Below are positions 3,985-34,713 of a stretch of DNA of 38,990 nt, piece by piece. Source of the DNA: a virus; IMG/VR virus record IMGVR_UViG_3300012270_000008, positions 1 through 38,990 of that record; one strand, 5' to 3'. The notes beneath the pieces are model-generated. The model saw only the letters and a list, made by a program, of their open reading frames with translations. It did not search any database and had not been told where the DNA came from. The translations under genes were made by a program, and so were the position numbers. Every line of letters begins with the position of its first letter. Position 1 is the first letter of the stretch.

Positions 3985-4018
3985 GACATAGGGGAGGGGC
4001 AATGCCCCTCCCTTTTAT
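3985..4018. terminator. Bidirectional intrinsic terminator
   Basis: A 9-bp GC stem (GGGAGGGGC at 3992-4000, GCCCCTCCC at 4004-4012) with an AAT loop is followed by TTTTATTT. It lies between the rightward HDOD gene and the convergent leftward gene ending at 4039 and can serve both. Confidence 0.85.
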
Positions 4019-6490: not shown

Positions 6491-6516
6491 GGGGAGGGGT
6501 ACGCCCCTCCCTTATG
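6491..6516 (+). terminator. Hairpin terminator or attenuator
   Basis: GGGAGGGG (6492-6499), loop TACG, CCCCTCCC (6504-6511). The following tract (TTATGCCGTTTTG) is only moderately T-rich, so it may attenuate rather than stop transcription into the next gene. Confidence 0.6.
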
Positions 6517-6979: not shown

Positions 6980-7012
6980 TAGACGACATAAGGGGAAGCG
7001 ATCGCTTCCCTC
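6980..7012 (+). terminator. Perfect inverted repeat after small gene
   Basis: GGGAAGCGATCGCTTCCC (6993-7010) is a perfect 18-base palindrome preceded by TAGACGACATAAG, the same 13 bases that precede the terminator at 31613-31650. There is no T-run, so termination would be inefficient; RNA processing or 3' end protection is an alternative. Confidence 0.5.
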
Positions 7013-7487: not shown

Positions 7488-7538
7488 GCATAAGGGGAGG
7501 CTACGGCCTCCCCTATGTCATCGCTTTATTTTTTGTCT
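7488..7538 (+). terminator. Terminator hairpin with TTTTTTGTC tail
   Basis: An 8-bp stem at 7494-7501 with 7506-7513 (GGGGAGGC, loop TACG, GCCTCCCC), extendable outward through CATA/TATG with a bulged A. It is followed after 15 bases by TTTATTTTTTGTC, a tail shared with several other terminators here. Confidence 0.7.
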
Positions 7539-8579: not shown

Positions 8580-8612
8580 TTTCAGGAATATATCATTGAG
8601 GTGCTATAGTCA
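8580..8612 (+). promoter_or_regulatory. Candidate early promoter of phuZ
   Basis: TTTCAGGAATATATCATTGA followed by GGTGC is the best copy of the window-wide element (core ATATCAT). It shares most of about 26 bases with the element at 32098-32123 and aligns with those at 10103, 27164 and 6091. TAGTCACA follows, as at the 6.1 kb copy. The phuZ start is about 95 bases downstream. Confidence 0.7.
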
Positions 8613-8651: not shown

Positions 8652-8669
8652 AACTATTGCGCAATAGTT
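8652..8669. promoter_or_regulatory. 18-base perfect palindrome before phuZ
   Basis: AACTATTGCGCAATAGTT is a perfect palindrome with core TTGCGCAA, ending 25 bases before the phuZ ATG and just upstream of its TAGGAG ribosome binding site. A sister palindrome with the same core lies at the same distance before chimallin (17914-17931). It could be an operator or, in RNA, a hairpin by the ribosome binding site. Confidence 0.7.
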
Positions 8670-8694
8670 ACAAACGAGAACTTTAGGAGCAGAC

Positions 8695-9651
8695 ATGTCT
8701 AAGACATTAAGAATTTTCGGATGTGGCGGCGCCGGGATTAACCTGGTCAGTCATTACTTCGGCAAAGAAACAGCAGCTGGAACTGCAGAACTGGCACCAG
8801 CCTTGATCGACACCAGTCGGTCCAACCTCAGAGGCCGTAAGATCGACGAAGCTGCCACCTACCTGGTAGAAGGCCTGGACGGCTCCGGTAAGATTCGCTC
8901 AGAAAACTACGAGGAAATCAACAAAACGATCAAACAGATCTTGGTGCAGATACCCCCTGGGGATTTCAATCTGGTGGTCTTCAGTGCCAGTGGCGGTTCA
9001 GGATCGGTTGTCGGTCCTTTGCTGCTCAAAGCGCTCAACGAAAGAAAACTCCCTGCGATCGCTATTGTGGTGGGGACTGATGAGTCTACTATCGCTGCTG
9101 AAAACACATTGAAAACCATCAAGTCTCTGGAACTGGTTGCTAAGAACAGCGACCTGCCGGTGATCATGTCGTTCCACAAGAACGATCTGGGTGGCCGCCG
9201 CTCTGAAACCGACCGTGCCGTTTGGTCCGTCATCTCCTGCCTGAGTATTCTTACGTCTGGCGAAAACATGGAAATGGATTATCGCGACCTGGTACATTGG
9301 GTTCAGTACACTAAGGTGAACGGCGGGCGTTCTCAGTTGGCTACTATGCACGTAGCAACGTCCGCCGACCACATGAAACGCATCACTGCTCCGCTGTCCG
9401 TGGCCAGTCTGTACGGAGATCCCGACCAAGAACACTTGGCAACGTCTGCGGACTATCAGTCTGTGGGTTACGCCGATCTCTCCGGAACGGATTTTGACCA
9501 GGTACACTTCGTCATCGGCGTCAACGATCTTCAGCGTATCGGTCAAGACCTGAAAGCTCAGGTGTCAGGTATGATGGAAGAGCGTAACGCTCGAATCGAC
9601 GTGGATTCGCTGTTGGAAGACGGCGACAGCGAAGGCGATGTAGTTCTTTGA
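8695..9651 (+). CDS. phuZ: Phage tubulin PhuZ
   Basis: A 318-residue tubulin/FtsZ-fold GTPase. In phiKZ-like phages PhuZ builds the bipolar spindle that centres the phage nucleus and carries capsids to it. The nucleotide-binding N-terminus reads FGCGGAGINL (residues 8-17). The tubulin signature loop is SASGGSGS at 97-104, matching the GGGTG(T/S)G position of FtsZ and tubulin. GTDESTIAAENTLKTIKSL (128-146) lies where FtsZ has its T5/H6 region. The C-terminal ~25 residues are acidic (DVDSLLEDGDSEGDVVL), like the PhuZ tail that contacts the neighbouring subunit. Length is normal for PhuZ. ATG is preceded by TTAGGAGC. Leucine codons lean to CTG more than in neighbouring genes, a sign of high expression. 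Confidence 0.93.
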   Translation: MSKTLRIFGCGGAGINLVSHYFGKETAAGTAELAPALIDTSRSNLRGRKIDEAATYLVEGLDGSGKIRSENYEEINKTIKQILVQIPPGDFNLVVFSASGGSGSVVGPLLLKALNERKLPAIAIVVGTDESTIAAENTLKTIKSLELVAKNSDLPVIMSFHKNDLGGRRSETDRAVWSVISCLSILTSGENMEMDYRDLVHWVQYTKVNGGRSQLATMHVATSADHMKRITAPLSVASLYGDPDQEHLATSADYQSVGYADLSGTDFDQVHFVIGVNDLQRIGQDLKAQVSGMMEERNARIDVDSLLEDGDSEGDVVL

Positions 9652-9667
9652 TAAAACCGTTTGTATT

Positions 9668-9800
9668 TTTCGGACGCTGGTTTGCCGTCGCTTGTGGGAG
9701 ACTTAGTTACCTATTGAGTCTTGCCCTGGAACCGTTCTTGGTTCTTCCGGCGCTGGCGTCCGAAATGACGGATGGATGTGTGACGAGAGCGCGCATCCAT
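9668..9800 (+). ncRNA. Candidate structured non-coding RNA after phuZ
   Basis: A perfect 10-bp stem, TTTCGGACGC (9668-9677) with GCGTCCGAAA (9756-9765), encloses two hairpins: AGACT (9699-9703) with AGTCT (9717-9721), and GAACC (9729-9733) with GGTTC (9740-9744), forming a three-way junction. A separate 9-bp hairpin, ATGGATGTG (9772-9780) with CGCATCCAT (9792-9800), follows. It may be the 3' part of the phuZ transcript or a separately processed RNA. An 81-codon frame through it (9648-9893) crosses all stems and is not believed. Confidence 0.5.
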
Positions 9801-9921
9801 GTAAGCGTGGGTTGTTGTCGTCTGTCGGTGATTTTTGGGGTCGCGCCAGGCAATCGAACAGGTAACCCACTTGCTGTAATGAGGTCGTTATGAGACGACT
9901 GATCGTTTTGAGTAAAGCGGC

Positions 9922-10003
9922 AGGAAGTCGAGTTCTCTTTGGACACCGTGCTGTTTAGCACTGGCTCCATGTTGAGACTCGACTTCCTATATTTTTTTTG
10001 TCT
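9922..10003 (+). terminator. Long-stem terminator downstream of phuZ
   Basis: A 12-bp stem, AGGAAGTCGAGT (9922-9933) with ACTCGACTTCCT (9977-9988), encloses a smaller hairpin GTGCT-GTTT-AGCAC (9948-9961). ATATTTTTTTTGTCT follows. The large branched loop is unusual for a simple terminator; the whole 9652-10003 stretch is probably transcribed with phuZ. Confidence 0.75.
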
Positions 10004-10102
10004 TTGCTGAAAGCTCCTCAGATCGTCTCTGCTGCCATTCTATGTGAATCAGTACATAACTGCGCTTTTATATGTAATAGGCCGTACAGGCCACTCCAGA
10101 CG

Positions 10103-10130
10103 TTTTCAGGGATATATTATCCATGTGATA
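10103..10130 (+). promoter_or_regulatory. Candidate early promoter of the small-gene cluster
   Basis: TTTTCAGGGATATATTATCC followed by ATGTG matches the phuZ-type element (TTTCAGG, then ATATYAT) at the same internal spacing. The first gene of the cluster starts about 35 bases downstream. Confidence 0.65.
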
Positions 10131-10158
10131 GACATTCCTGACCGAGGTGAGACAGCCC

Positions 10159-10698
10159 GTGATATTAATCTTCAATGTCGATGAGCACCTTCACGACTTA
10201 AAGCATCATTTTGACTGTCCCAAGACGGCACTGCTACGAATAGTAGGATACCACCTGTACAGAGAATACCATCTCGATGCTGGTCTTCAATGCATGTATC
10301 TTGATAGACGCTATTCCCGGGAATACAGTCGATTCCATCTGTCGTTCTTACTTGAACTCAAACTGGTGGGCACGTCGATTGTGTACGGTGGTGCGTATTA
10401 CGGACGGTTGCAACTACATAAAACCGACCTCTGGGTCACTCTAGAGACGACTAGGATTGGAACGCATGCAGAACCCCCTCAAATCACAGCTGATGAATAT
10501 GCACGACTGGGCCGACATCACCACGGCACTCGTTCGTCAGTTCATCTACGAAACGCTCGAACCGCACACGACCCCATCGGACAAAGATACCGTGTCCCAG
10601 ACGTGGACAATGAAACAATCTATTCAGTGGGTTCAAGCGCAGTTAGACGACGAGTTCAATCGTCAAATGGCGTGGGCGAGCGCCACTACCGCCGCTGA
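10159..10698 (+). CDS. Small hypothetical protein with out-of-frame extension
   Basis: A 179-residue frame from the GTG at 10159, chosen because GAGGTGAG precedes it; a GTG at 10147 is the alternative. Residues 1 to about 100 look like a real protein (ILIFNVDEHLHDLKHHFD ... LWVTLETTRIG). The last ~75 residues (ARLGRHHHGTRSSVHLRNAR...) overlap the next gene by 233 bases in another frame and look like shadow translation. Both other frames have stops at 10442 and 10452, just where neighbouring paralogue-like genes end after a terminal beta strand. A lost stop or a one-base indel near 10440 is therefore likely. Function unknown. Confidence 0.55.
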   Translation: MILIFNVDEHLHDLKHHFDCPKTALLRIVGYHLYREYHLDAGLQCMYLDRRYSREYSRFHLSFLLELKLVGTSIVYGGAYYGRLQLHKTDLWVTLETTRIGTHAEPPQITADEYARLGRHHHGTRSSVHLRNARTAHDPIGQRYRVPDVDNETIYSVGSSAVRRRVQSSNGVGERHYRR

Positions 10699-10981
10699 CG
10701 ACGTCTTAATGGATTTCCTAAGCGAGCTGTTCTCTACCGAGCTGGGTCCTGAGATCACCACCAAGAAAAACCAAAAGAAACTTCTGAACAACCTCATCGA
10801 ACTCACCGACCCCGCAGTTATCGTGATAGGGGAAGCCGTTGCAGATCTGGTACAACCGAACCCCTGGATGGTGTGGAGTATCCGATACCGATATGACATC
10901 GCACTGATCGAACCCGACGACGACTATCGAATTAAAATCTTCAATCAGAAAGTTGAGGCTGGCGACTGGAAACTTAAGTGA
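10466..10981 (+). CDS. Small hypothetical protein, cluster member
   Basis: A 171-residue protein from the ATG at 10466 with an AGGA ribosome binding site. It is helical in the first two thirds (residues about 30-110), followed by strands (AVIVIGEAVADLV, WMVWSIRYRYDIALIEP) near the C-terminus. It overlaps the extension of the preceding frame and is followed 7 bases later by the next gene, so the two are probably co-translated. No family recognised. Confidence 0.7.
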   Translation: MQNPLKSQLMNMHDWADITTALVRQFIYETLEPHTTPSDKDTVSQTWTMKQSIQWVQAQLDDEFNRQMAWASATTAADDVLMDFLSELFSTELGPEITTKKNQKKLLNNLIELTDPAVIVIGEAVADLVQPNPWMVWSIRYRYDIALIEPDDDYRIKIFNQKVEAGDWKLK

Positions 10982-10988
10982 GGCGAGC

Positions 10989-11360
10989 ATGGTCTTTGAA
11001 TACGTTCACCGCATCAGCCTTTATGAAATTGGCAGCTACGTCCGTCACTACTTAGACGAACATGGGACAATTCCGATGAACGGTCGTCCTATGAATTATC
11101 TTTTAGAGATGCATCTGAATTTGCTCTTGTGCAACGACTTGAGTTATTTGGGCGCCATGCGACGCAAACTGCATCAATACTTATCACCACATCACGCGGA
11201 TACGTTAACCGATTTGGTTCACGACATGTTACTGTACGACACCCGACACTACTTAACGTTGGATGAGGGCGAAACGGTGATTGAAGTTAGTGTCAAGTCA
11301 AACTACGACGCGGTGGTGGTTGTCCACGAGCGAGACGGCGCGCACGCCCTCAACGACTAA
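10989..11360 (+). CDS. Small hypothetical protein, cluster member
   Basis: A 123-residue protein, MVFEYVHRISLYEIGSYVRHYLDEHG..., with ribosome binding site TGAGGCG. Helical N-terminal two thirds with many His and Tyr residues; the end is a beta pair (ETVIEVSVKSNYDAVVVVHE). It ends the first sub-operon of the cluster, before a clear terminator. Not recognised. Confidence 0.7.
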   Translation: MVFEYVHRISLYEIGSYVRHYLDEHGTIPMNGRPMNYLLEMHLNLLLCNDLSYLGAMRRKLHQYLSPHHADTLTDLVHDMLLYDTRHYLTLDEGETVIEVSVKSNYDAVVVVHERDGAHALND

Positions 11361-11370
11361 CCCCAACACA

Positions 11371-11397
11371 CGAGGACGGTTCCGACCGTCCTTTATT
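11371..11397 (+). terminator. Intrinsic terminator inside small-gene cluster
   Basis: GGACGGT (11374-11380), loop TCCG, ACCGTCC (11385-11391), then TTTATTCTC. Confidence 0.75.
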
Positions 11398-11413
11398 CTC
11401 ATTAGGTACTATT

Positions 11414-11935
11414 ATGCTGAATCGACCGATGCTACTTGACCTTTACGAGGCTTATGTTGATTTCCGGTCACGGATGACTGAGATACTTCGTCGGGAAACG
11501 TTGATGCATCCGATGAACGTCGTTATTGACGACTTCTTTCAAATCGCGATACACCGAGCCTCCGACAGCGTCTCGTTCTTTGACGACGCTGGAACTCAGA
11601 AGAAACACTTGCACCCAGTGGGTATACATCGAATCATGGTGTCGACTCACATGCAAGACATCTTCTTTGACGAGTTCACGGATTATGTATTTGAATGCAG
11701 TTACTTCGACAAAAACGCACTGGAAGACAGATTCATTCACCATCAAATTGCATCGTTGTGTGTACATGCTGTGGGTCAGATATTGCAATCCATCATGGCG
11801 GTGATCATTCAGACCAACGATGGTCGCATGTTCTTTCACCCAGACAACGCTACCCTTGACATGACGATGTCTGATCTGATCATTGACCCTATCCCAAATC
11901 GCCTGGATGTAAAAGTAACAGTGAGATTCGAATGA
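11414..11935 (+). CDS. Small hypothetical protein, cluster member
   Basis: A 173-residue protein, MLNRPMLLDLYEAYVDFRSR... It is helical, has a long hydrophobic helix (SLCVHAVGQILQSIMAVIIQ, about 119-138) and ends in a terminal strand LDVKVTVRFE. The layout resembles the 13656-14189 product (LAQIGVDVLVQLMIRTTEVM then TDVIVTIKLN), which suggests distant paralogy. Its stop overlaps the next start by ATGA. Confidence 0.7.
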   Translation: MLNRPMLLDLYEAYVDFRSRMTEILRRETLMHPMNVVIDDFFQIAIHRASDSVSFFDDAGTQKKHLHPVGIHRIMVSTHMQDIFFDEFTDYVFECSYFDKNALEDRFIHHQIASLCVHAVGQILQSIMAVIIQTNDGRMFFHPDNATLDMTMSDLIIDPIPNRLDVKVTVRFE

Positions 11936-12330
11936 GAGCTCATACCCCTATACGACGTATGATTCTGTCGATGTACGAATCGTTGACGTTCCTGACGGAA
12001 GTGTGTCATTTAGAGCCACATCTGGCTCAGGAACTGATCGAGCTGGTGATTCTGTCGCAGTGGTCCACGACCCGTATGAACGGGATCGAATGGATTCACC
12101 GGAACGGCCACGGATATACGACAGTGGATGAAGTTCTTGAAGACGCCTTAGAAGAGATGGCGTACACTGAAAATCTTCAAATACCCAGAGACCGTCTGCG
12201 CCACGCCGCGTTCGGTGTGTTGGTGGACCTGCCTGAACAGAAGAAGTACTGGGAAGAATTAAACGAACACGGCTCACTGGGTTGTCAGATTCACTGGCGG
12301 CGCTCTGACGTGTTAATTAAGTTTATGTGA
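11932..12330 (+). CDS. Small hypothetical protein, cluster member
   Basis: A 132-residue protein, MRAHTPIRRMILSMYESLTFL..., translated by ATGA coupling with the gene before. Helical, tryptophan- and glutamate-rich, ending in strands (LGCQIHWRRSDVLIKFM), again the helix-then-terminal-strand layout. Function unknown. Confidence 0.7.
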   Translation: MRAHTPIRRMILSMYESLTFLTEVCHLEPHLAQELIELVILSQWSTTRMNGIEWIHRNGHGYTTVDEVLEDALEEMAYTENLQIPRDRLRHAAFGVLVDLPEQKKYWEELNEHGSLGCQIHWRRSDVLIKFM

Positions 12331-12338
12331 GGTAATCT

Positions 12339-12722
12339 ATGCAAGGTACAATCATCTTGCCAACTGACCACGTCATGCAGGAATTCCACAACATGGCTAT
12401 GCGTATGCAGGCGTTGGACTTTGACGCGTATGAGTGCGTACGCATCGCTATGGATTCCTTGATCTTTGCTCAGAAGTATCCCCGCTCGTTTGAAACCGAG
12501 GTCTGTCTGACGTATGAGAACCGCGGCGTTCAAGACATGTCTATGGACGACATTAAAATTCTAAACGGGATGATGCGACTTCTGTATGAGAGACTGTATT
12601 GCGCACTCTGCTCGATGAGACTCTACGATTCAACGGGAAGACTGACGCATCAGTACTTCGAACTGAATCACGGAGACATCGTTGTTTCCGATCAAGCGTT
12701 TGATAACCAACCAACCTCCTAG
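12339..12722 (+). CDS. Small hypothetical protein, cluster member
   Basis: A 127-residue protein, MQGTIILPTDHVMQEFHNMAMRMQ..., with a GTGAGG ribosome binding site that overlaps the previous stop. Helical core (IKILNGMMRLLYERLYCALCSMRL) and a C-terminal strand (FELNHGDIVVSDQAF). Not recognised. Confidence 0.7.
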   Translation: MQGTIILPTDHVMQEFHNMAMRMQALDFDAYECVRIAMDSLIFAQKYPRSFETEVCLTYENRGVQDMSMDDIKILNGMMRLLYERLYCALCSMRLYDSTGRLTHQYFELNHGDIVVSDQAFDNQPTS

Positions 12723-12732
12723 GGAGATCGGG

Positions 12733-13089
12733 ATGCAAATCATCCTAACTGTGTCGTCGATCAAACCCGTGGTCGACATGGTGGAAGTTGACTTAGGTCA
12801 AGATGTCCCCGTAGATCGTTGCTCGGTACTGAACCGGATCAATGGTATGATCAATGAAGCTTTTGACTGCTTCCATTCAAGCGACGATATGGTCGAGACG
12901 ATTCAGAGAATGCTTGAAGACAACGAACTGGACGACGACGAGCTTTTGTTCGTGGCCCCGGAGGTGTATCTCTTTAAGTGTTTGCTGGAAGAACTCGAAA
13001 TCCATCCACTTACTCAGCAGAAAAAATTAAGTCTGCGATACGTAAGCGTTGTTGGGGTGTTTGGCGATTTCATGTTACACTACAAGTAA
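12733..13089 (+). CDS. Small hypothetical protein, cluster member
   Basis: A 118-residue protein starting MQIILTVSSIKPVVDMVEVD. The ATG at 12733 follows AGGGAG; the longer in-frame start at 12682 would overlap the previous gene and lacks a binding site. Acidic patch EDNELDDDELLF in the middle, helices after it, and a C-terminal strand region ending MLHYK. Not recognised. Confidence 0.7.
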   Translation: MQIILTVSSIKPVVDMVEVDLGQDVPVDRCSVLNRINGMINEAFDCFHSSDDMVETIQRMLEDNELDDDELLFVAPEVYLFKCLLEELEIHPLTQQKKLSLRYVSVVGVFGDFMLHYK

Positions 13090-13098
13090 GGAGCACCC

Positions 13099-13503
13099 AT
13101 GGCTACATCGGAACAATTCCAGATGGGCTCAGCCTACGACTTCATTACCTACGCTCCGTCGGTACTGGGATCGTTTAAGAACGTGAGAGTCACCGGTATT
13201 GTTGATTACCGCGGCGCTCAACAGTACATCGACCCTGCGTCGTATCACGCGAACGTGTTCAGCACACTACCAGCGAACAGTGCGCCCGATGACCATACTC
13301 GTTACTACTATTTGGTGGTCGTCCAATCTAACGGGACACGCACCGCCGTTGCTCTGCCTTGGATCGATGGTGCCAGCGTGGCAATTCGTGAGCGAGGTCG
13401 GGCAACTGTGAGTCTTGAAGATGTCGGACCGGACGATCTGGATCGCCTCAGACGGTCGTTGGCACACAACGGCTTTGTCATCGGTTCGATCGAATTGAAC
13501 TGA
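13099..13503 (+). CDS. Small hypothetical protein, beta-rich
   Basis: A 134-residue protein, MATSEQFQMGSAYDFITYAP..., with a strong AAGGAG site. Unlike its helical neighbours it reads as beta-rich with turns (RYYYLVVVQSNGTRTAVALPWIDGASVAIRERGRATVS) and ends with a helix and strand (LDRLRRSLAHNGFVIGSIELN). Function unknown. Confidence 0.7.
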   Translation: MATSEQFQMGSAYDFITYAPSVLGSFKNVRVTGIVDYRGAQQYIDPASYHANVFSTLPANSAPDDHTRYYYLVVVQSNGTRTAVALPWIDGASVAIRERGRATVSLEDVGPDDLDRLRRSLAHNGFVIGSIELN

Positions 13504-13598
13504 TTTAAGTTTAATTACGAACACAACCGTACATGATATGCATCGAAAAGTTCGTGACTGGTTTTCTTGAGCGTTGGCCAGATCCACGACGTTAGCTC

Positions 13599-13630
13599 CG
13601 GGGGGCCGTTTTGGTCCCCCGTTTTTTTTT
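13599..13630 (+). terminator. Strong intrinsic terminator
   Basis: A 9-bp stem, CGGGGGGCC (13599-13607) with GGTCCCCCG (13613-13621) including one G-T pair, loop GTTTT, followed by nine T. Confidence 0.9.
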
Positions 13631-13655
13631 CGCATCGACATTAAGAGTCCCTATT

Positions 13656-14189
13656 ATGTTAACTCTCATCATCGAGATGAACGACGTCATTGATGAGCTG
13701 TGTCTGAAGATCGATTCGATCCTTAAAGTCTCAGGTCTTGAGGTGGTCGACGATCTGACGAACGAACTCATGCTTATTAGCTTGGACTTTGCGACCACAG
13801 TCTACGAGTACATCGACAGTAACCGCCCGTTGAACGCGATGCAAGTGACGGACCTGCGTCAAGCATGGCATGACCAACGGTTTCATGAAACCTATCAAGG
13901 CGATTACTACACGGCTTTGATCGAGATGTGTAATGAGGAAAACGATGAACTCCGGCAATTGGCTCAGATTGGGGTTGACGTATTGGTTCAGTTGATGATT
14001 CGAACCACGGAGGTCATGTTAGCGCAGCCTGGGTGTCGTAACCTGATGCGGGAAATCGGGACTACCACCGATTTTTCAACGGGCAAGGATCTTCCTCTAT
14101 TAATGCCCAGTTTTACTCTGGCACCCAATTCTACCGATGTCATTGTCACAATCAAGTTAAACCCAGAACTCACCCATGCGGCTGCTTAG
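13656..14189 (+). CDS. Small hypothetical protein, cluster member
   Basis: A 177-residue protein, MLTLIIEMNDVIDELCLKID... ATG at 13656 chosen; the track upstream in frame runs through the preceding terminator. Helical throughout with a terminal strand TDVIVTIKLNPEL, like the 11414-11935 product. The stop codon lies inside the loop of the following terminator hairpin. Last gene before the DNA polymerase. Confidence 0.7.
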   Translation: MLTLIIEMNDVIDELCLKIDSILKVSGLEVVDDLTNELMLISLDFATTVYEYIDSNRPLNAMQVTDLRQAWHDQRFHETYQGDYYTALIEMCNEENDELRQLAQIGVDVLVQLMIRTTEVMLAQPGCRNLMREIGTTTDFSTGKDLPLLMPSFTLAPNSTDVIVTIKLNPELTHAAA

Positions 14190-14210
14190 GCCGCTTTATT
14201 TTTTGTCTAA
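14178..14210 (+). terminator. Terminator overlapping the end of the coding region
   Basis: GCGGC (14178-14182) with GCCGC (14190-14194), loop TGCTTAG that contains the TAG stop, followed by TTTATTTTTTGTCTAA. Confidence 0.75.
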
Positions 14211-14265
14211 GTTGTTTTTTTGGAAGCGACCACGTTATCGATATGCACACATCAGGAGGTGATAA

Positions 14266-16413
14266 ATGTCGTCTTTTTTCGTTAAACCCGTTGAAGAATA
14301 CCACCGTACCCTTGACATTCAGTCAGCGTATTTGAAAGACATGGCTACTGGCTTGGCTCGCGTTACCGGGCGATCCTTCGACGCTTGTTTTGAGTACGTG
14401 AAACAGGTCACGAGCGCGGGTGGTAGGCTGGCGTACGAAGACCCACCTATGAAGTACGTAGGTCGGAAGTCTTCAGGGGATAGGGTCCTTAAGGTAACAA
14501 CGTTCTTGAATTACATCAAGACTGTGGATCAACACCAATTGATTCTCGCTCCCTCAATGACGGTCTACCAGAACCCTAATGTAGAGAAGTCGGTGACGGC
14601 CATCTATATCGCTGAGAACATCAAGAAGCGATCGAAATCGAAGAAAGAAATGTTTGCTGCGAAAGAGGCTGGTAACAACTCCTTGCACGCGTTTAAGAAG
14701 AACGAACAACAGACGCACAAGATTAAGAACAACGCCTTGTCCGGTGCTCACTGTTCAGACTCAACGGTTTTGTACCTGGACACTATACACTCCAGTTTGA
14801 CATCAACCTGCCGCAGCGCCGCCGGTTACGGCAACGCAAATAATGAAAAGGTCTTGTCGGGTAATCGACACTACTGGTCGGCAGAGATTGTAATGGCCAA
14901 TATTCTAGCGGTGACCAATCACGTCAACTTCGAAGAGTTTGCTCAAGCGATGCAGCAGTACGACCTGATCGCACCCTCAATCGATGAAACCATGGAATGC
15001 ATTCAGTACAGTACAGATTTCTACTGGCGTGACCGAGGTAAGACGGATCAGATCCACCGCCTGGTTAGCGGTCTGTCTGACTTGGAAAGGGCGGCGTTTG
15101 TGTACACTGGCGATTTGTACCACCTGGCCAAACACAACCCCCAAGTGGTCCGGACGCTGCTTGAAGAAGTTGCGACCATCCCCGACGATACCGTTGAGAA
15201 CTGTGAACAGTACGTTAAAGGACTGACGGATGAAATGGGGGCTATGGTGTCCTTGCTGTGTGGTAAGTTCATGGGGGGTAAGAACATCTCGTCCTTCGAC
15301 GATTTAACCAAAGAGACCCAGAACCTACTCGGAGCGACCGCTAAGCGTTTGACGGAAACGCTTGAACATTACCGTCTGCTGATAAAGGTTTTGTTGGTTA
15401 GTGACGTTATGCCTGCGAGTATGGCCAATCTACCGAACATCATTCGACGTAACGCCATCACCTCCGATACCGACTCCACCATTTACACAGTACAAGACTG
15501 GTTGATCTGGTACGACGGTAAGATTTCATTTAACGAACAAGCCGTGAACATCGGTCATGCGGTGTCGTTTCTGTCATCGGCGTCAATCACTCACATCCTG
15601 GCGAAGATGTCGGCGAACATGGGTGTGGCTAAAGACCAATTACATCAGTACCAGATGAAGTCTGAGTTCTACTTTCCAGTGTTCGCATTGACCTCACGAG
15701 CGAAGACGTACTTTGCGCACGTAGGAGCCCAAGAAGGGCAGGTCTTTACGGAACCGGATTTGGAAGTCAAGGGCGCGGTACTTAAAGGTTCGGCGTCGCC
15801 GAAGTTCGTGATGGACGACGCGGATGCTTTGGTGAACGAAATCCTTGAAACGGTTGCCAGCGAGAAGAAGATTCAACTCACCCCGATTCTGGAGCGAGTG
15901 GCTAAAATTGAACAGACCATCATTGATTCGATCAAGCGCGGTGAGACGTTCTATTACAAACGAAGCGAAATCAAGACCGCAGACTCTTACAAGTTAGGAG
16001 AGTCGAACAGTCCTTACATGCATTACTTGTTGTGGACCGACGTCTTTGCTGACAAGTATGGGGCGATTGAATCCGTGCCGTATCGTGCTATTAAGGTATC
16101 GATCGATGCTGACTCTAAGACGGACTTCACTCGTTGGATTGATTCGTTTGACGATCCGGCCATTCGAGAAAAGCTTCTGATCTTCTTGAAGAAACACGGC
16201 AAAGATAAGTTAACCACAATCCAAGTTCCACAAGCCATTGCAGAAACCTCTGGCATCCCTCAGGAGATCGTTAACGGGGTTTCGTACCGTAAGGTGGTGT
16301 CTAACCTACTTGAACCACACTACGTGTTGCTGGAGACCTTAGGGTTCTACACAATCGACGACAACCAACTGCGATTGGTATCCGATAGCTACCTCCCAAC
16401 CAAAGCGTCATAA
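14266..16413 (+). CDS. B-family DNA polymerase, polymerase domain only
   Basis: A 715-residue protein proposed to be the replicative polymerase. Motif C is SDTDS (400-404). Motif B is K152-x3-N156-ALSG (Kx3NxxxG class) followed by a helix. A motif A-like segment LDIQSAYLKD has D17-x2-S20-x-Y22 near the start. No 3'-5' exonuclease motifs precede motif A, so proofreading, if present, must be encoded elsewhere. The roughly 240 residues between motifs B and C are much longer than usual. The last ~200 residues are thumb-like and helical. Ribosome binding site AGGAGGTGAT is near perfect. By recollection the phiKZ counterpart is gp44. Assignment rests on motifs and synteny only. Confidence 0.75.
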   Translation: MSSFFVKPVEEYHRTLDIQSAYLKDMATGLARVTGRSFDACFEYVKQVTSAGGRLAYEDPPMKYVGRKSSGDRVLKVTTFLNYIKTVDQHQLILAPSMTVYQNPNVEKSVTAIYIAENIKKRSKSKKEMFAAKEAGNNSLHAFKKNEQQTHKIKNNALSGAHCSDSTVLYLDTIHSSLTSTCRSAAGYGNANNEKVLSGNRHYWSAEIVMANILAVTNHVNFEEFAQAMQQYDLIAPSIDETMECIQYSTDFYWRDRGKTDQIHRLVSGLSDLERAAFVYTGDLYHLAKHNPQVVRTLLEEVATIPDDTVENCEQYVKGLTDEMGAMVSLLCGKFMGGKNISSFDDLTKETQNLLGATAKRLTETLEHYRLLIKVLLVSDVMPASMANLPNIIRRNAITSDTDSTIYTVQDWLIWYDGKISFNEQAVNIGHAVSFLSSASITHILAKMSANMGVAKDQLHQYQMKSEFYFPVFALTSRAKTYFAHVGAQEGQVFTEPDLEVKGAVLKGSASPKFVMDDADALVNEILETVASEKKIQLTPILERVAKIEQTIIDSIKRGETFYYKRSEIKTADSYKLGESNSPYMHYLLWTDVFADKYGAIESVPYRAIKVSIDADSKTDFTRWIDSFDDPAIREKLLIFLKKHGKDKLTTIQVPQAIAETSGIPQEIVNGVSYRKVVSNLLEPHYVLLETLGFYTIDDNQLRLVSDSYLPTKAS

Positions 16414-16415
16414 AC

Positions 16416-16460
16416 AGCGTGCTAGGCTAAGCAGGGTCGCCCTTGCTTAGCCTAGCCGCG
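16416..16460. terminator. Long-stem bidirectional terminator between convergent genes
   Basis: GCTAGGCTAAGC (16421-16432) with GCTTAGCCTAGC (16445-16456), continuing inward through AGGG/CCTT around a TCGC loop, about 16 bp in total. Neither side has a long T-run. It separates the polymerase gene from the leftward gene ending at 16463. Confidence 0.7.
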
Positions 16461-16462
16461 GT

Positions 16463-17551
16463 TCATAAGTACGCCATCACTGCTCGATCAATGCGATCGA
16501 GTATTTCTTTTGCCCTGGCGCTGCCTACGGCGCTCTCAAACTCTTTGTCACGTTTCAATTCCCGATACCGCTTGCGCAGAATCGACGCTTCTTGCGTATT
16601 GCGTGAACTGCCTGCTTCAAAGTCAATCTGCACGATGAACTCAATGATCGGCAATGTCCACAAGGTCATCGCCCAAGCATTCTGCCGGGTAATGGCCACT
16701 TCGGGGATCTCTGACAGCCCCTGCATGTTTTCAAGTGCCACCAACTTAACCTGCTGCATCATCGTACCGTACGTCATAGGTCGCTGAGTCAGGTAGGCGA
16801 TCCGATCAACTAAGTAGTTATCGACCTTACGGTCGTAGTCGGTCAAGTACATCGGCCAACTACTATAGAACGCCTCGGCCTCGTGTCCAGAAGACAGGGT
16901 CATGATGCGATTCAATAACGCCACGTCCAGATGAGACAGTAGGGCGTTGGCGAGAGGAAATTCAAACACGAACTGCATGGGACTTCGAACAAACGCGACG
17001 TTGGCTCGCTTCTGAGCCAAGTACCACTCTCGGTATTGTAACGCCAGTTTAGGGAGGTCGATTTGGATGACGGCCCACGATGGGTATTCGGTGTTTAATC
17101 GGCCGTCTAGTGGCTCTAAGGCGGTTGAGTTAAACGGATGCCGCAACACTTTGACCGGAAGCAGTTGTTTCCACGTCTCGTCAATTGTCAAGAGGTCTAC
17201 GTCTTCTGACGCCGATAGCAATACCTCTTGAACGTTGTCGCCATAGAAGGTCTCGCGTTCAAACATCTTACCGCTGGCCCCCGCAGTAGTCAGACCGTTG
17301 GCTCGCGCAAGGCGTTCTACCCGAGCGTCGACTTTTCGATGGTACTCAAACACAGGAAGTGTAGGGTCTACGTTTAACCCAGTCAGTAACTTGACCAGCA
17401 CATGGGCGCTGTCTACCGCATAACTGGCGCCCCGGCATTCGCGTAGGACGGCAGTAAGGTTCTTACGGAGACCGCGTTTAACGTAACCATACTCGGGTGG
17501 AAGCGATACTCTTGCTTCTACCTCCAAGAGGTTGGTAAACAGCGTATACAT
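16463..17551 (-). CDS. Conserved-looking protein of unknown function
   Basis: A 362-residue protein, MYTLFTNLLEVEARVSLPPEYGYVKRGLRK..., of mostly helical character. The only notable segments are an aromatic/basic region (LALQYREWYLAQKRANVAFVRSP) and a highly basic C-terminal helix (RKRYRELKRDKEFESAVGSARAKEILDRIDRAVMAYL). No catalytic motif recognised. The ribosome binding site is weak. It is divergent from chimallin across a 406-base region that holds chimallin's leader. A virion protein is possible. Confidence 0.75.
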   Translation of the reverse strand: MYTLFTNLLEVEARVSLPPEYGYVKRGLRKNLTAVLRECRGASYAVDSAHVLVKLLTGLNVDPTLPVFEYHRKVDARVERLARANGLTTAGASGKMFERETFYGDNVQEVLLSASEDVDLLTIDETWKQLLPVKVLRHPFNSTALEPLDGRLNTEYPSWAVIQIDLPKLALQYREWYLAQKRANVAFVRSPMQFVFEFPLANALLSHLDVALLNRIMTLSSGHEAEAFYSSWPMYLTDYDRKVDNYLVDRIAYLTQRPMTYGTMMQQVKLVALENMQGLSEIPEVAITRQNAWAMTLWTLPIIEFIVQIDFEAGSSRNTQEASILRKRYRELKRDKEFESAVGSARAKEILDRIDRAVMAYL

Positions 17552-17695
17552 AGCAAGGTCTCATAGTTAAAAGAAAACGAAGAGGAGTTAGGTCATAGTA
17601 TGCGAGTAAATCGCGTCCACCGTTCCCCAACGTTTCTAGAACGTTGGGGGACACCAGTTATACCCAGGGCGCTATGTAAAATCGCACGTAGACGC

Positions 17696-17716
17696 ATCAT
17701 TCATTGAGGATATGAA
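17696..17716 (+). promoter_or_regulatory. Degenerate early-promoter element before chimallin
   Basis: ATCATTCATTGAGGATATG shares CATTGAGG with the phuZ element but has only a partial ATATCAT core. If used, it gives a leader of about 240 bases. A weaker call than the other copies. Confidence 0.35.
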
Positions 17717-17768
17717 GGGAATCTATTATTTCTTACACAGCAGCATGACTGTATAGACACCATGCTGA

Positions 17769-17931
17769 CCGAGCGCCTCGACGGAGGATTGCTCGGGACA
17801 CCTCACAGTCTATTCGTTTTGAGTTTGCGAACGACTGGAGTTGGTGCGTTAAAACCGTTGATCGTAGATTATTTCAGACCTACATCATCCCTGTGCATAG
17901 CTCGTCGTAGAGCTGTGTTTGCGCAAACACA
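17769..17931 (+). promoter_or_regulatory. Structured 5' leader of chimallin
   Basis: Compound hairpin: CCGAGC (17769-17774) with GCTCGG (17791-17796) around CCTC-GACG-GAGG. Then CATAGCTC (17896-17903), loop GTCGTA, GAGCTGTG (17910-17917), an 8-bp stem with one G-T pair. The 3' arm of the second stem overlaps the palindrome at 17914-17931, so the two folds are mutually exclusive. That is the arrangement expected of a translation switch, though this is inference. Confidence 0.45.
17914..17931. promoter_or_regulatory. 18-base perfect palindrome before chimallin
   Basis: TGTGTTTGCGCAAACACA, core TTGCGCAA, ends 26 bases before the ATG. It is the counterpart of the palindrome before phuZ. The flank to the start codon is also similar (ACCAAAGAAACGTAGGAG against ACAAACGAGAACTTTAGGAG). 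Confidence 0.7.
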
Positions 17932-17957
17932 ACCAAAGAAACGTAGGAGAATACTTC

Positions 17958-19823
17958 ATGGGAATTACACGTGATGACGAAGGAGCATCCCCAAGCCAAG
18001 GCCAGGCTCAGGAAGCACCTAACGCTCAACCACAACAGCCAGATCCTGGGTACCAGCAGCGGAATCAACCCCGCGGAAGATTGGGTATGAGCTCACTCGG
18101 GGATCGCATTCAGCGCCCGATGAAGCGTAACCAGATGGGTGAAGTGCTGGCCGAATATGGCCGTGCTGTTGATCGTATCTTCGGCGATGCCATGGCTACC
18201 TACGGCACTGAGTTCAAGGTTCTGCCTCTGGACGCTGGCCGTCATGGCCTGCACTACTCAGCGATCATGTTGATTGGTCTGGTGAACGTAGGTGGCCGCA
18301 AGGTTGCTTCTACTTACACCATGATCCTGGAGGCTTCTGCTGCGGCCCCGCGCCCGACTGTGATGAACATGTACAACCAATCGGTTGAAGTGGTTCTGAC
18401 CGCCATGGACGCCTGGGACGAAGCCACCTGGTCCAAGGTACAATCAGTTGTCAAGCAGAACTATGGCGACGGCGTTGAAGTGATGAATGCCGGTGCGATG
18501 GTCGTTCCGCAGGACGTCGACGTTAAAGACGAAGAACGCGTCTGGCAAGTTGTTTGGGCTGCTCAAGAAGCTGTTCTTTCCACTATGGAATCCAGTTTCC
18601 CAGAAGAGTTTGCTCACTTCAACCTGACCGAAGTCTTTGACGCCAGCCGTGACCGCATGAACGCATCGTTTGTGTACAACGGCCCAGACGGTGAGTCGGT
18701 GACTGGTATGCCAGTTCGTAGCGACATCACCCTGGTTATGTCAAGCTCTGAGCGCAGTGCGAACAACAGCAATCAGGTCTCGTCGTTTCAGCACCAAACC
18801 GGAAAAGACCTCATTGAGGTTAACAGCTACGTGGATCTGGTGTACGCCCCGACCAATCAAGCTCCGGCTCCTGGTCAACAAACCCCGACACAGATCTTTG
18901 TGCCTCGGATAGTCCTCACCAAAATCTCCGCGTTGGACGCGCCCTTCACGCCGGAAATGTTCCTGCTGGGTCTGGCCACCAACGTACTGATCGGCGATAA
19001 TTACGCCTGGGCCTCGCAGTTCGCGAATTTCGCTCAGGAAGAAATTCACGACATCGGAGGCATCGGGTATCGTCTGAGCAACCCTAACGACTCGAAATCC
19101 TCCCCGCAGCCTGTCGATACCAAGACTAACACCTTCGGTCAGAACGAACTGTTCGATCTGATTCAACACACTTGCTGGAAGGACCCTGCGTTCTCCATCG
19201 ATTGTGAAGATGTTGGACCTGAATCGTGGTTGACCGGTGCCTTGACCGACTCGGCTCATGGTAATCCGAACTCCACGAACTTCTTGGTGGAGGCGGCCAA
19301 CAATCTGACCAACGATCACTTCGGTAAAGCGTGGCAGGGTGGTCACATCACCGTTAACGAGAATAGCCGTATCCACCTGGGTACCTATGTTGATGCCAAA
19401 GGCGTCACTCGTGACCTGCGTGAAATCGACAGCCTGGCGATCTTGAACCACTTCGGTCACAACGACATGAATGCCGTCAATGCGTGGGAATCTACGTTTA
19501 ACGACATGAATGCACCGATCGAGCTGCGTCTTGAGAAGCGTTTGCAGATGATCCGCAACCTCGCCGGTGGGAACCTGAAAGTCCGTGGCTTCGCTGAGCG
19601 TGTAACGTTCACGCCGGAGTTCATCGAGACACTGGTCGCTTCGGTTGTGCGCGCTGGTCTGATGGTTGATGAGAATGGCCTGCAGTCCATGTACGGCCAG
19701 AACTTCCAGGTTGGTAACAACTTCCTGAACCAGTACGCAGCGCATACAGGCGGTAGCGGTATGGTTAACAGCGGTGGCCCTCAGGGCAGTGCGATTTTCC
19801 GTCGCCCGATGTCTCGCTGGTGA
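17958..19823 (+). CDS. chmA: Chimallin, phage nucleus shell protein
   Basis: A 621-residue protein that in this phage family self-assembles into the one-molecule-thick lattice enclosing replicating phage DNA and shielding it from host nucleases. ATG at 17958 chosen: AGGAGA lies 7 bases upstream, while the longer frame starting at 17919 would begin inside the palindrome. Residues 1 to about 45 are disordered and Gln/Pro-rich (SQGQAQEAPNAQPQQPDPGYQQ); the chimallin N-terminal segment is known to be flexible and to reach a neighbouring protomer. The C-terminal ~25 residues (GGSGMVNSGGPQG...RRPMSRW) also look flexible. Length is close to that of 201phi2-1 ChmA (about 630). The gene directly precedes the beta-prime N-half, as phiKZ gp54 precedes gp55. 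Codon choice is CTG-rich, fitting very high expression. Confidence 0.88.
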   Translation: MGITRDDEGASPSQGQAQEAPNAQPQQPDPGYQQRNQPRGRLGMSSLGDRIQRPMKRNQMGEVLAEYGRAVDRIFGDAMATYGTEFKVLPLDAGRHGLHYSAIMLIGLVNVGGRKVASTYTMILEASAAAPRPTVMNMYNQSVEVVLTAMDAWDEATWSKVQSVVKQNYGDGVEVMNAGAMVVPQDVDVKDEERVWQVVWAAQEAVLSTMESSFPEEFAHFNLTEVFDASRDRMNASFVYNGPDGESVTGMPVRSDITLVMSSSERSANNSNQVSSFQHQTGKDLIEVNSYVDLVYAPTNQAPAPGQQTPTQIFVPRIVLTKISALDAPFTPEMFLLGLATNVLIGDNYAWASQFANFAQEEIHDIGGIGYRLSNPNDSKSSPQPVDTKTNTFGQNELFDLIQHTCWKDPAFSIDCEDVGPESWLTGALTDSAHGNPNSTNFLVEAANNLTNDHFGKAWQGGHITVNENSRIHLGTYVDAKGVTRDLREIDSLAILNHFGHNDMNAVNAWESTFNDMNAPIELRLEKRLQMIRNLAGGNLKVRGFAERVTFTPEFIETLVASVVRAGLMVDENGLQSMYGQNFQVGNNFLNQYAAHTGGSGMVNSGGPQGSAIFRRPMSRW

Positions 19824-31612: not shown

Positions 31613-31662
31613 TAGACGACATAAGAGGAGGGGCGAACCCCTCCTCTTTGTTTTTTGTCTAA
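31613..31662. terminator. Bidirectional terminator between convergent genes
   Basis: AAGAGGAGGGG (31623-31633) with CCCCTCCTCTT (31638-31648), loop CGAA, then TGTTTTTT. An outer TTAGAC (31612-31617) can also pair with GTCTAA (31657-31662), where the leftward gene's stop codon lies. Confidence 0.9.
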
Positions 31663-32274: not shown

Positions 32275-33477
32275 GTGAGCGATGCAATTGTAAAAGAAAC
32301 TCGGCGTAATGAACTCAGACCGGACATTCTGTCCGTAAACAGTTTACATTGCTGGCCTGGACAGATATCTTCTCCTCGGCTGCAGATGTTTGGTAGTCAC
32401 ATCAGTCAGAGTTTGACAACCGTAGGGGCCAGTGAACGCCGTTGCTTTACCGGTATGGAACCTAAGTTCGGTAAGTACACGTTTGGGGTTCGACTTGAAC
32501 ACGATGCTCGGGTGATCAAACTCATCACCCGATACCCTCGCACACTGGGCGATAACACCATTAAAGAAAGTCCGGAAAGCATTCTGATCTACGAGTACGA
32601 TCGACGGCTGTCCAGTGGTCAGATGGTTAAGGAAGTGGATTTCATCAGTTGCCCCAGCCATCACACGCTGCATCAGAACTTTGGTTATCGCTATAAGTAT
32701 CTGGACGCGCCATCGGACTACATTGGCGAAGGTGAGGTTCTCGCTCAAAGCCCTGCCATCGCTGAAAACGGCAACTACAAATTCGGTCTGGAAGCCAACG
32801 TCGCTATGATGTCGGTACCTCAGATCATTGAAGACGGTGTGGTGGCCAGCGAGTCTTTCTGTAAACGAATGACCACAACGGGCATCGAGACATACGTGAT
32901 CAGCTTCGGTAAGAACAAATACCCACTGAACATCTACGGCGACTACGACAATTACAAGATCCACCCAGACATCGGCGAACACGTTGGTGAGGACGGTATC
33001 TTGATGGCGATGCGTCGGTACGACGACGAGTTGGCTCCGGTCAACATGTCTCGAGCTGCTTTGAGGAAACCTGATTTTAAGTACGACGAGTGTGTCTACG
33101 TAGAGCCAGGTGCTAAGATTGTGGACATCCGAGTCAGTCATGACGAGCGTCTGCGCGGCGTGATCCGTGGTAAAGGTATGAACACCCCGGTGGGCATGCA
33201 CGACCAACCCGACAAGTATTTGACGGCAGACCAAGTGTTCTACCGCTCGGTACTGAACGAGTACAAACGTCTGTTCGCTTCTCGTAAAGACGCTTTGCGC
33301 ATCACCCCTCGGTTCCACAACCTATTGGTACAAGCGCAAGCGGCGACCACCTCTGGTGACAAGCGTCGGATGATGCGAACGTATCGGGGGGTGCCAATCG
33401 ACGAGTGGCGTATTGAGATCACAGTTGAGTATCCCATCGTCCCCACGATTGGGTTTAAGTTGACAGGGTGTCATGGT
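32275..33477 (+). CDS. Non-virion RNA polymerase beta C-terminal half, exon 1 (phiKZ gp71-like)
   Basis: The first 401 codons of an interrupted gene. GTG start with AAGGAG 6 bases upstream. The exon ends in GFKLTGCHG, the first half of the RpoB motif KxAGRHGNKG that is invariant across bacterial beta subunits, and the frame hits a stop six codons later inside the intron. Joined to exon 2 it gives KLTGCHG-DKTKGVLCDIVKDEDMP, matching RpoB around the active centre (HGNKGV...EDMP). The mature protein is about 693 residues. In phiKZ the equivalent subunit, gp71-73, is likewise encoded by two exons. The beta N-half (phiKZ gp123-like) is not in this window. Confidence 0.88.
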
Positions 33478-33834
33478 GATGCGACTCTAAATTAACAGAT
33501 ATGAAGTTAGAGTCTGTCCGCCTCAGCAGCGATGTTGGGTGCGAATCTCTTTGAATTGCTGGGACGTCTTATTAGACGTACGCACCACTGTCGTGGGGAA
33601 ACCACACGATCACGGTCTGAAAAGCGTACGGTAGAGACAATCAGCAGCGAAGCTTCTACGTACTGTCGTGAGGCAGGATAGGAAGAACGTTCAACGACCA
33701 AGGCCTTACCAGCCTGTAGGGGTCAAGCGACCCCGAAGTGGAGAGCGTCTCACTGAGACGAAGATATGGTCTGGTCCTTATGGAGACATAGGGCGGGTGT
33801 CTTAGCACACCGGCTGCACGTAGCGAGTGTAGTG
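33478..33834 (+). ncRNA. Self-splicing group I intron, ORF-less
   Basis: A 357-base intron. The 5' exon ends in T (GGT) and the intron ends in G, the two rules of group I splice sites, and the junction restores a continuous beta subunit. The core is visible: P-like AATTGCTGGGA (33554-33564), Q-like ATCAGCAGC with GAAGC (about 33640-33653), R-like GTTCAACGACCA (33689-33700) and S-like AAGATATGGTC (33761-33771). P4 pairs TGCTG with CAGCA; P7 pairs GACCA (33696-33700) with TGGTC (33767-33771). Local hairpins ACGTCT/AGACGT (33564-33579) and GTGG-GGAAA-CCAC support P5-type stems. There is no homing-endonuclease frame, whereas the phiKZ intron is reported to hold the gene 72 HNH endonuclease. P1 was not resolved by eye. 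Confidence 0.85.
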
Positions 33835-34713
33835 GACAAAACGAAAGGCGTACTTTGCGACATTGTTAAGGACGAAGACATGCCCGTGGACGCTGACGGC
33901 AACCGGGCAGAGTTGATCATGGATGGCCTATCGACTATTAAGCGGATGAACGTGTCTCGCTGTATGGAGCAGTATCTGAACGCATGCTCTCGAGACGTGA
34001 CGAAGAAAATTCAGGCGATGGTAAAGTCAGGCGAATCCAAGGAAGAGATCAACAACTATTTGATGCCGTATTATCAGATCGTCAGTCCTCGTATGGTTGA
34101 CTTGGTCTCGAAGAAGGGTATGGTGACCGATGAACATCTAGCGGCGATCGTTGAGGATGGAATCTATCTGTGGCAGCCTACTGATAACGAGGTGGAGCCC
34201 ATGGATGTAATCAAGCAACTCAACGAGCACTATGCTCCTACCTTTGGTCCAGTCACATACCGTGGCATGGGCGGTGAGATGAAACGCACGGCGAACAAGG
34301 TACTGATCGGGAGCATGTACATCATGTTGCTCGAGAAGACCGGTCGTAACTGGGCAGGTGTGGCCTCATCCAAACTCAGTCACTTCGGTACCCCAGCGAA
34401 GTTGACCAGCGCGGATCGTCACAGTCAACCTGGTCGTAACCAACCGATCCGATTCGGTGAATCCGAGGGTCGTCTGTTCGTCGCCATGGTTGGCGGTCGA
34501 GAAACGGCGGAACTCTTCGATCGGACCAACAACCCCGTGGTTCGTAAAGTGATTCAGGAACGGATCTTACGAGAAGCCAAACCCACCGCTATCGAGAGCA
34601 TCATTGACAGGAAGAAGTACCCCAGCGGCAACGGTCGCGTCTTGTCCTTGATACGCCACTTCGGTGAGTGTGCAGGTTGGCGCTTCAAACGTGAGGTAAC
34701 ACATAATGACTAA
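33835..34713 (+). CDS. Non-virion RNA polymerase beta C-terminal half, exon 2 (phiKZ gp73-like)
   Basis: Codons 402 to 693 of the spliced gene, beginning DKTKGVLCDIVKDEDMP, the RpoB segment after HGNKG. Later MNVSRCMEQYL matches RpoB MNIGQILExHLG, and MYIMLLEKTGR with RFGESEGRLFVAMVGG match the RpoB C-terminal HMV(D)DK.. and QPVRFGEME segments. An ATG at 33766 opens a longer frame but lies inside the S element of the intron, has no ribosome binding site, and its first 23 residues are intronic. The end overlaps the beta-prime C-half start by 8 bases. Confidence 0.88.
   Translation, partial: DKTKGVLCDIVKDEDMPVDADGNRAELIMDGLSTIKRMNVSRCMEQYLNACSRDVTKKIQAMVKSGESKEEINNYLMPYYQIVSPRMVDLVSKKGMVTDEHLAAIVEDGIYLWQPTDNEVEPMDVIKQLNEHYAPTFGPVTYRGMGGEMKRTANKVLIGSMYIMLLEKTGRNWAGVASSKLSHFGTPAKLTSADRHSQPGRNQPIRFGESEGRLFVAMVGGRETAELFDRTNNPVVRKVIQERILREAKPTAIESIIDRKKYPSGNGRVLSLIRHFGECAGWRFKREVTHND

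Follow-up and report, generated by a model that had tools for sequence, protein, structure and literature searches.

Conserved perfect palindromes in the chimallin leader of nucleus-forming phages: a candidate operator with an additional copy before phuZ in one clade

Phage mRNAs carry stem-loops and translational operators in their 5′ leaders. The palindrome described here, in the leader of the chimallin gene chmA, is reminiscent of these elements in that it lies between promoter and Shine–Dalgarno sequence, and a neighboring hairpin, P1, is of this kind; however, the palindrome as an RNA structure (P2) would fold only weakly and lacks an unpaired loop, its perfect symmetry extending into the centre. 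It also resembles the operators of dimeric repressors (lambda Cro, TetR-type and XRE-type) in being a two-fold symmetric site of 14–18 bp close to the promoter of a single gene and in the symmetric changes of its half-sites. Unlike these operators, the chmA site is located ~39 nt past an early-promoter motif of the virion RNA polymerase and differs in sequence between lineages, and its cognate protein is only putative. The early promoters of phiKZ-like phages have an AT-rich motif centred at −10 (PMC7598289), and the chmA leader has such a motif, of the TATATTAC type, upstream of the palindrome; the palindrome, however, is a separate element between promoter and start codon. ChmC, a nucleic-acid-binding protein of the phage nucleus that binds phage mRNA (PMC12908238, PMC13282480), could read leader elements and is a candidate only. 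Our search of the open-access PMC literature returned no description of the chmA leader palindrome, which we provisionally regard as new, and the reviews consulted there do not discuss how the amount of chimallin is controlled while the phage nucleus grows.

The window analyzed is the whole 38,990-nt stretch of the IMG/VR virus record IMGVR_UViG_3300012270_000008. It harbors phuZ (8695..9651, + strand), encoding a tubulin-like spindle protein of 318 aa with up to 39% identity to annotated PhuZ by tblastn, and chmA (17958..19823, + strand), encoding the 621-aa nuclear shell protein chimallin, which matches annotated nuclear shell proteins by tblastn (22–28% identity to the named ones). Two perfect 18-bp palindromes precede these genes, exactly where the earlier note had placed them: AACTATTGCGCAATAGTT, with the core TTGCGCAA, at 8652..8669 (strandless), 25 nt before the phuZ ATG at 8695, and TGTGTTTGCGCAAACACA at 17914..17931 (strandless), 26 nt before the chmA ATG at 17958. 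TTGCGCAA is unique to these two sites in the window, where 0.45 occurrences are expected by chance. The core resembles the C/EBP site, a likeness that we presume to be coincidental. Only one further palindrome in the window has 9-bp arms (three in total); this sequence, GGGAAGCGATCGCTTCCC at 6993–7010, has a different core, lies 40 nt before a 142-aa ORF and is possibly part of a terminator.

The inferred early promoter element of chmA is TACATCAT (17881..17888, + strand), the counterpart of TATATTAC in other chimalliviruses, and its context ACCTACATCATC is invariant within the window’s clade. It is followed by P1, a predicted 5′-proximal RNA hairpin (CATAGCTC-GTCGTA-GAGCTGTG; 17896..17917, + strand) whose 3′ strand shares bases with the 5′ arm of the palindrome, and by the Shine–Dalgarno sequence TAGGAG (17944..17949, + strand). 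Upstream of phuZ, TATATCAT (8589..8596, + strand) is tentatively assigned as an early-promoter-like motif by its resemblance to the phiKZ-type motif; it is present in a 170-kb relative and unrecognisable in a 222-kb relative. The likeness of the two flanks (A-rich, then TAGGAG) that had been pointed out earlier is real, but it mostly reflects ordinary Shine–Dalgarno context: TTTAGGAG, which stands at 8682..8689 (+ strand) before phuZ, is common in the clade and precedes start codons in all 12 of its 12 copies in the 222-kb contig.

Three relatives from IMG/VR were compared, namely one near-identical contig (99%), the 170-kb contig (87%/82% amino acid identity to the window) and the 222-kb contig (81%/73%). 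All three have both palindromes at unchanged distances from the genes. The longest invariant runs in the leader alignments are the palindrome cores together with the early-promoter motif at chmA and the Shine–Dalgarno context at phuZ, and TATTGCGCAATA of the phuZ palindrome is invariant. At the phuZ site, one outer pair reads C-G in the window, C.C in the near-identical (99%) contig and G-C in the 222-kb contig, indicating that symmetry was lost and then regained. The 222-kb contig contains TTGCGCAA 12 times, with arms of 9 only at the phuZ and chmA sites; the remaining ten copies have arms of 4–6 bp and lie within ORFs, and relaxed scanning of this contig yielded no third good site. A many-site regulon for this core is thus ruled out, with two sites only in this relative. 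No DNA-level matches to the chmA region were found among named phages, and no relatives of the window’s chimallin were found in bacterial genome contigs.

Sequence comparison across the family shows that nucleus-forming phages generally have a perfect palindrome before chimallin, and that its pairing with phuZ is a local detail. In most chmA leaders, an even-centred perfect palindrome stands downstream of a TATATTAC-type early promoter and ahead of the start codon, its centre lying on average 35 nt (sd 5) before the ATG and 39 nt (sd 6) after the promoter. Arms of at least 6 bp were observed in 15/20 leaders of named phages, which were collected without selection for the palindrome, and in 23/30 of all chmA leaders, compared with 2.1% of dinucleotide-shuffled leaders. 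The letters are lineage-specific (TTTGCGCAAA, CTTGATCAAG, CATTAGCTAATG, CATTGCAATG and others) and the symmetry is kept, with the outer arms varying on both sides together. The sites are TTCTTGATCAAGAA in phiKZ, Psa21, RVTF4 and PS119XW; TACTTGATCAAGTA in PhiPA3; TTAACTTGATCAAGTTAA in Phabio; ACATTAGCTAATGT in RAY, AH06 and Proteus phage 10; CAATCGCGATTG in SA002 and SNUABM_37; AATGACGTCATT in Goslar; ACACACTCGAGTGTGT in FLC9; TTTCATTGCAATGAAA in Moabite and Totoro; AAACATTGCAATGTTT in SNUABM_54; and TGTTCGCGCGAACA in LucasX. Weak palindromes with 5-bp arms only are found in 201phi2-1, L032 and L033, and an even perfect palindrome is absent from the chmA leaders of Noxifer, DT01, Eowyn and FLC6.

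The same analyses set chmA apart from other genes. Across 71 core ortholog groups in eight genomes, the mean arm is 6.5 for chmA (a value that includes two mis-called starts), 4.1 for the next-best group and 2.75 at the median. Genome-wide pattern searches with each lineage’s palindrome normally returned one non-coding copy, located before chmA, and additional copies were mostly short-armed and inside ORFs. Moreover, none of the phuZ leaders of 29 other chimalliviruses has an arm of more than 5 bp in the corresponding region. Because phuZ leaders elsewhere lack the palindrome and the chmA copy is usually single, we conclude that the phuZ copy was added in the window’s clade. The earlier note had taken the pair as a co-regulation element that balances spindle and shell. 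Within the clade, the data do support a common, conserved and sequence-specific site ahead of both genes; the emphasis was nonetheless misplaced, as the element belongs to chmA family-wide, and balancing of spindle and shell cannot be its general role, given those 29 phuZ leaders without a comparable palindrome.

Chimallins very distant from that of the window (21–29% identity) are preceded by one and the same 14-mer, TGTTTGCGCAAACA. In the chimallin tree, leaders of the GATC class form a single clade, those of the AGCT and CGCG classes fall next to each other, and the TTTGCGCAAA class occurs on both sides of the deepest split, many of its members in the tree having been found by searching for that class. 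The exact conservation of TGTTTGCGCAAACA across this split points to sequence-specific recognition. On the simplest reading, a TTTGCGCAAA-type site would be ancestral and replaced in derived clades; repeated origin of such sites is possible. Among the matches listed from IMG/VR (at least 119 stretches, many of them chance sites), TGTTTGCGCAAACA stands shortly before a chimallin gene in at least 11 further contigs, whose chimallins have 24–29% local identity to that of the window; these contigs were found through the palindrome itself. Chimallins diverge too far for an alignment of all of them to support a scan of the collection.

Whether the palindromes act as a shared operator or as an RNA element was left as a choice in the earlier note, and the data favor the side of DNA symmetry, the RNA hairpin being weak or disrupted, although the position of the site would suit either. 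For a stem of at least 5 bp around 4 nt, the central 4 nt are self-complementary in 20/20 leaders, with five different sequences, whereas a plain hairpin loop is expected to have such a centre in 1/16 of cases. Most palindrome copies have isolated RNA hairpin energies of 0 to −3 kcal/mol. In the window’s clade, the predicted pairing probability of P2 at chmA is 0.00–0.03, negligible because P1 uses the 5′ arm of the palindrome, and P1 is predicted to exclude P2 both in this clade and in L177. No Rfam match was obtained at the palindromes; the window’s single hit, a group I intron (33446–33793, + strand; 71.7 bits), lies away from them, between the ORFs 32275–33495 and 33766–34713. The self-complementary centres, the weak hairpins and the occupation of one arm by P1 collectively speak for a two-fold symmetric DNA site read by a dimeric protein rather than for an RNA hairpin.

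Based on these findings, we propose a plausible model, the chances of which we judge to be about even, in which the early chmA leader contains a two-fold symmetric DNA operator for a putative dimeric phage protein, to which phuZ was recruited in one clade. The operator would lie in the transcribed leader, ~39 nt past the early-promoter motif and ~35 nt before the ATG, and would be bound by a putative phage-encoded DNA-binding dimer. The bound protein would adjust chmA transcription after an initial burst from the virion RNA polymerase; a block of the promoter-proximal region would be the simplest way to do so. Coevolution of operator and protein would change the letters between lineages and leave the symmetry in place. 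In the window’s clade, phuZ would have gained a copy of the site with the core TTGCGCAA and come under the factor of chmA. Binding by a dimer, an effect on chmA transcription and the sign of that effect are what we infer here; what we observe is a site that is conserved, confined to chmA among core genes, lineage-specific in sequence and, in one clade, also copied before phuZ. A wider reading, held tentatively and somewhat short of an even chance, is that an ancestral chimallin-specific cis-regulatory site and a dedicated, coevolving regulator set the dosage of the shell, with one clade having rewired its spindle gene. As for the cognate reader, XRE-type helix-turn-helix domains (HTH_3, PF01381; HTH_26, PF13443) are scattered, with none above the cut-off in the window’s clade, and a universal reader of this type is unsupported since neither domain is universal.

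The most substantial alternative to this operator model is that P2 folds as a hairpin beside P1 in the chmA leader, and likewise in the phuZ mRNA of the clade, and acts after transcription. The palindrome is indeed downstream of the inferred transcription start, and it adjoins P1, which does behave like RNA in sequence comparison: with G-U and compensatory changes, its arms AGCTC/GAGCT become AGTTC/GAACT in the 222-kb relative. For phiKZ, Phabio, Totoro and Moabite, formation of P2 itself is predicted with a probability of 0.8–0.9, the series G-C, C.C and C-G at phuZ keeps pairing, a T-G pair in D6 is followed by further pairing, and the corresponding place in Noxifer is occupied by a looped hairpin, CCGAG-cataa-CTCGG. 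Set against the weak folding energies, the invariably self-complementary centres, the exclusion of P2 by P1 and the TTTGCGCAAA core kept across a very deep split, these points leave the hairpin possible but doubtful, and we would say the same of its conceivable modes, namely protection of the 5′ end, tuning of ribosome access or binding by a phage RNA-binding protein such as ChmC. Pairing between two chmA transcripts through P2, by kissing loops or a full duplex, would explain why the centre is self-complementary and why the sequence is free to vary, with predicted dimer energies of −12 to −29 kcal/mol for clear sites, and might make translation or export depend on how concentrated the transcript is in the small early vesicle. 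However, it leaves the persistence of one exact 14-mer across deep lineages unexplained, and no precedent was found in nucleus-forming phages; we consider both the pairing and this effect improbable.

A DNA site of another kind, such as an anchor, replication or resolvase site lying in the chmA leader by coincidence, would fit the usual single copy per genome at a fixed place, with two copies in the window’s clade. However, the palindrome keeps a nearly fixed distance from both the chmA start codon and the early promoter, with the small spreads given above, and the second copy of the clade stands at an equal distance before another gene, phuZ; we regard such a role as improbable. That the palindromes are a by-product of chance or base composition is hardly credible: some other genes are also preceded by palindromes, but conservation refutes this explanation, as do the shuffled and phuZ controls and the ortholog ranking.

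Returning to the operator, the conserved palindrome and the phuZ copy suggest an undescribed switch for building the phage nucleus. The position and sequence of this cis element of chmA are defined in phiKZ, PhiPA3, Goslar and RAY, where it can serve as bait for the regulator and as the basis of a reporter assay, and the phuZ copy offers an example of a phage rewiring a second gene into a circuit by gaining a site.

Palindromes were also seen in a few other places. The palindrome is not a leader device of early genes in general, as chmA is an outlier; yet some capsid-protein leaders carry palindromes. One ortholog group of 740–764 aa genes, probably the major capsid protein, has leader palindromes in RAY (AACTTATATAAGTT), Goslar (ACTTATATAAGT) and Moabite (TAAATAACGTTATTTA), with arms of at most 5 bp in the other genomes compared. 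In the 222-kb relative, GTTGTTGGCCAACAAC is found in the leader of a 523-aa gene related to a non-virion RNA polymerase subunit; a 181-aa gene of RAY has this leader palindrome in common with it (TTGTTGGCCAACAA), and the common palindrome is downstream of an early-promoter motif. Between genes of the window, terminator-type G-rich/C-rich hairpins (GGGAGGGG..CCCCTCCC and relatives) occur at 3992–4012, 6492–6511, 7493–7514 and 31623–31648. A 440-aa gene of Goslar is preceded by CACATTAGCTAATGTG, the chmA palindrome of RAY and Proteus phage 10. Finally, GTGTTTGCGCAAACAC, at position 301189 of LucasX inside the hypothetical gene LUCX_328, matches the chmA site of the window’s clade, and the chmA site of LucasX itself, TGTTCGCGCGAACA, is different.
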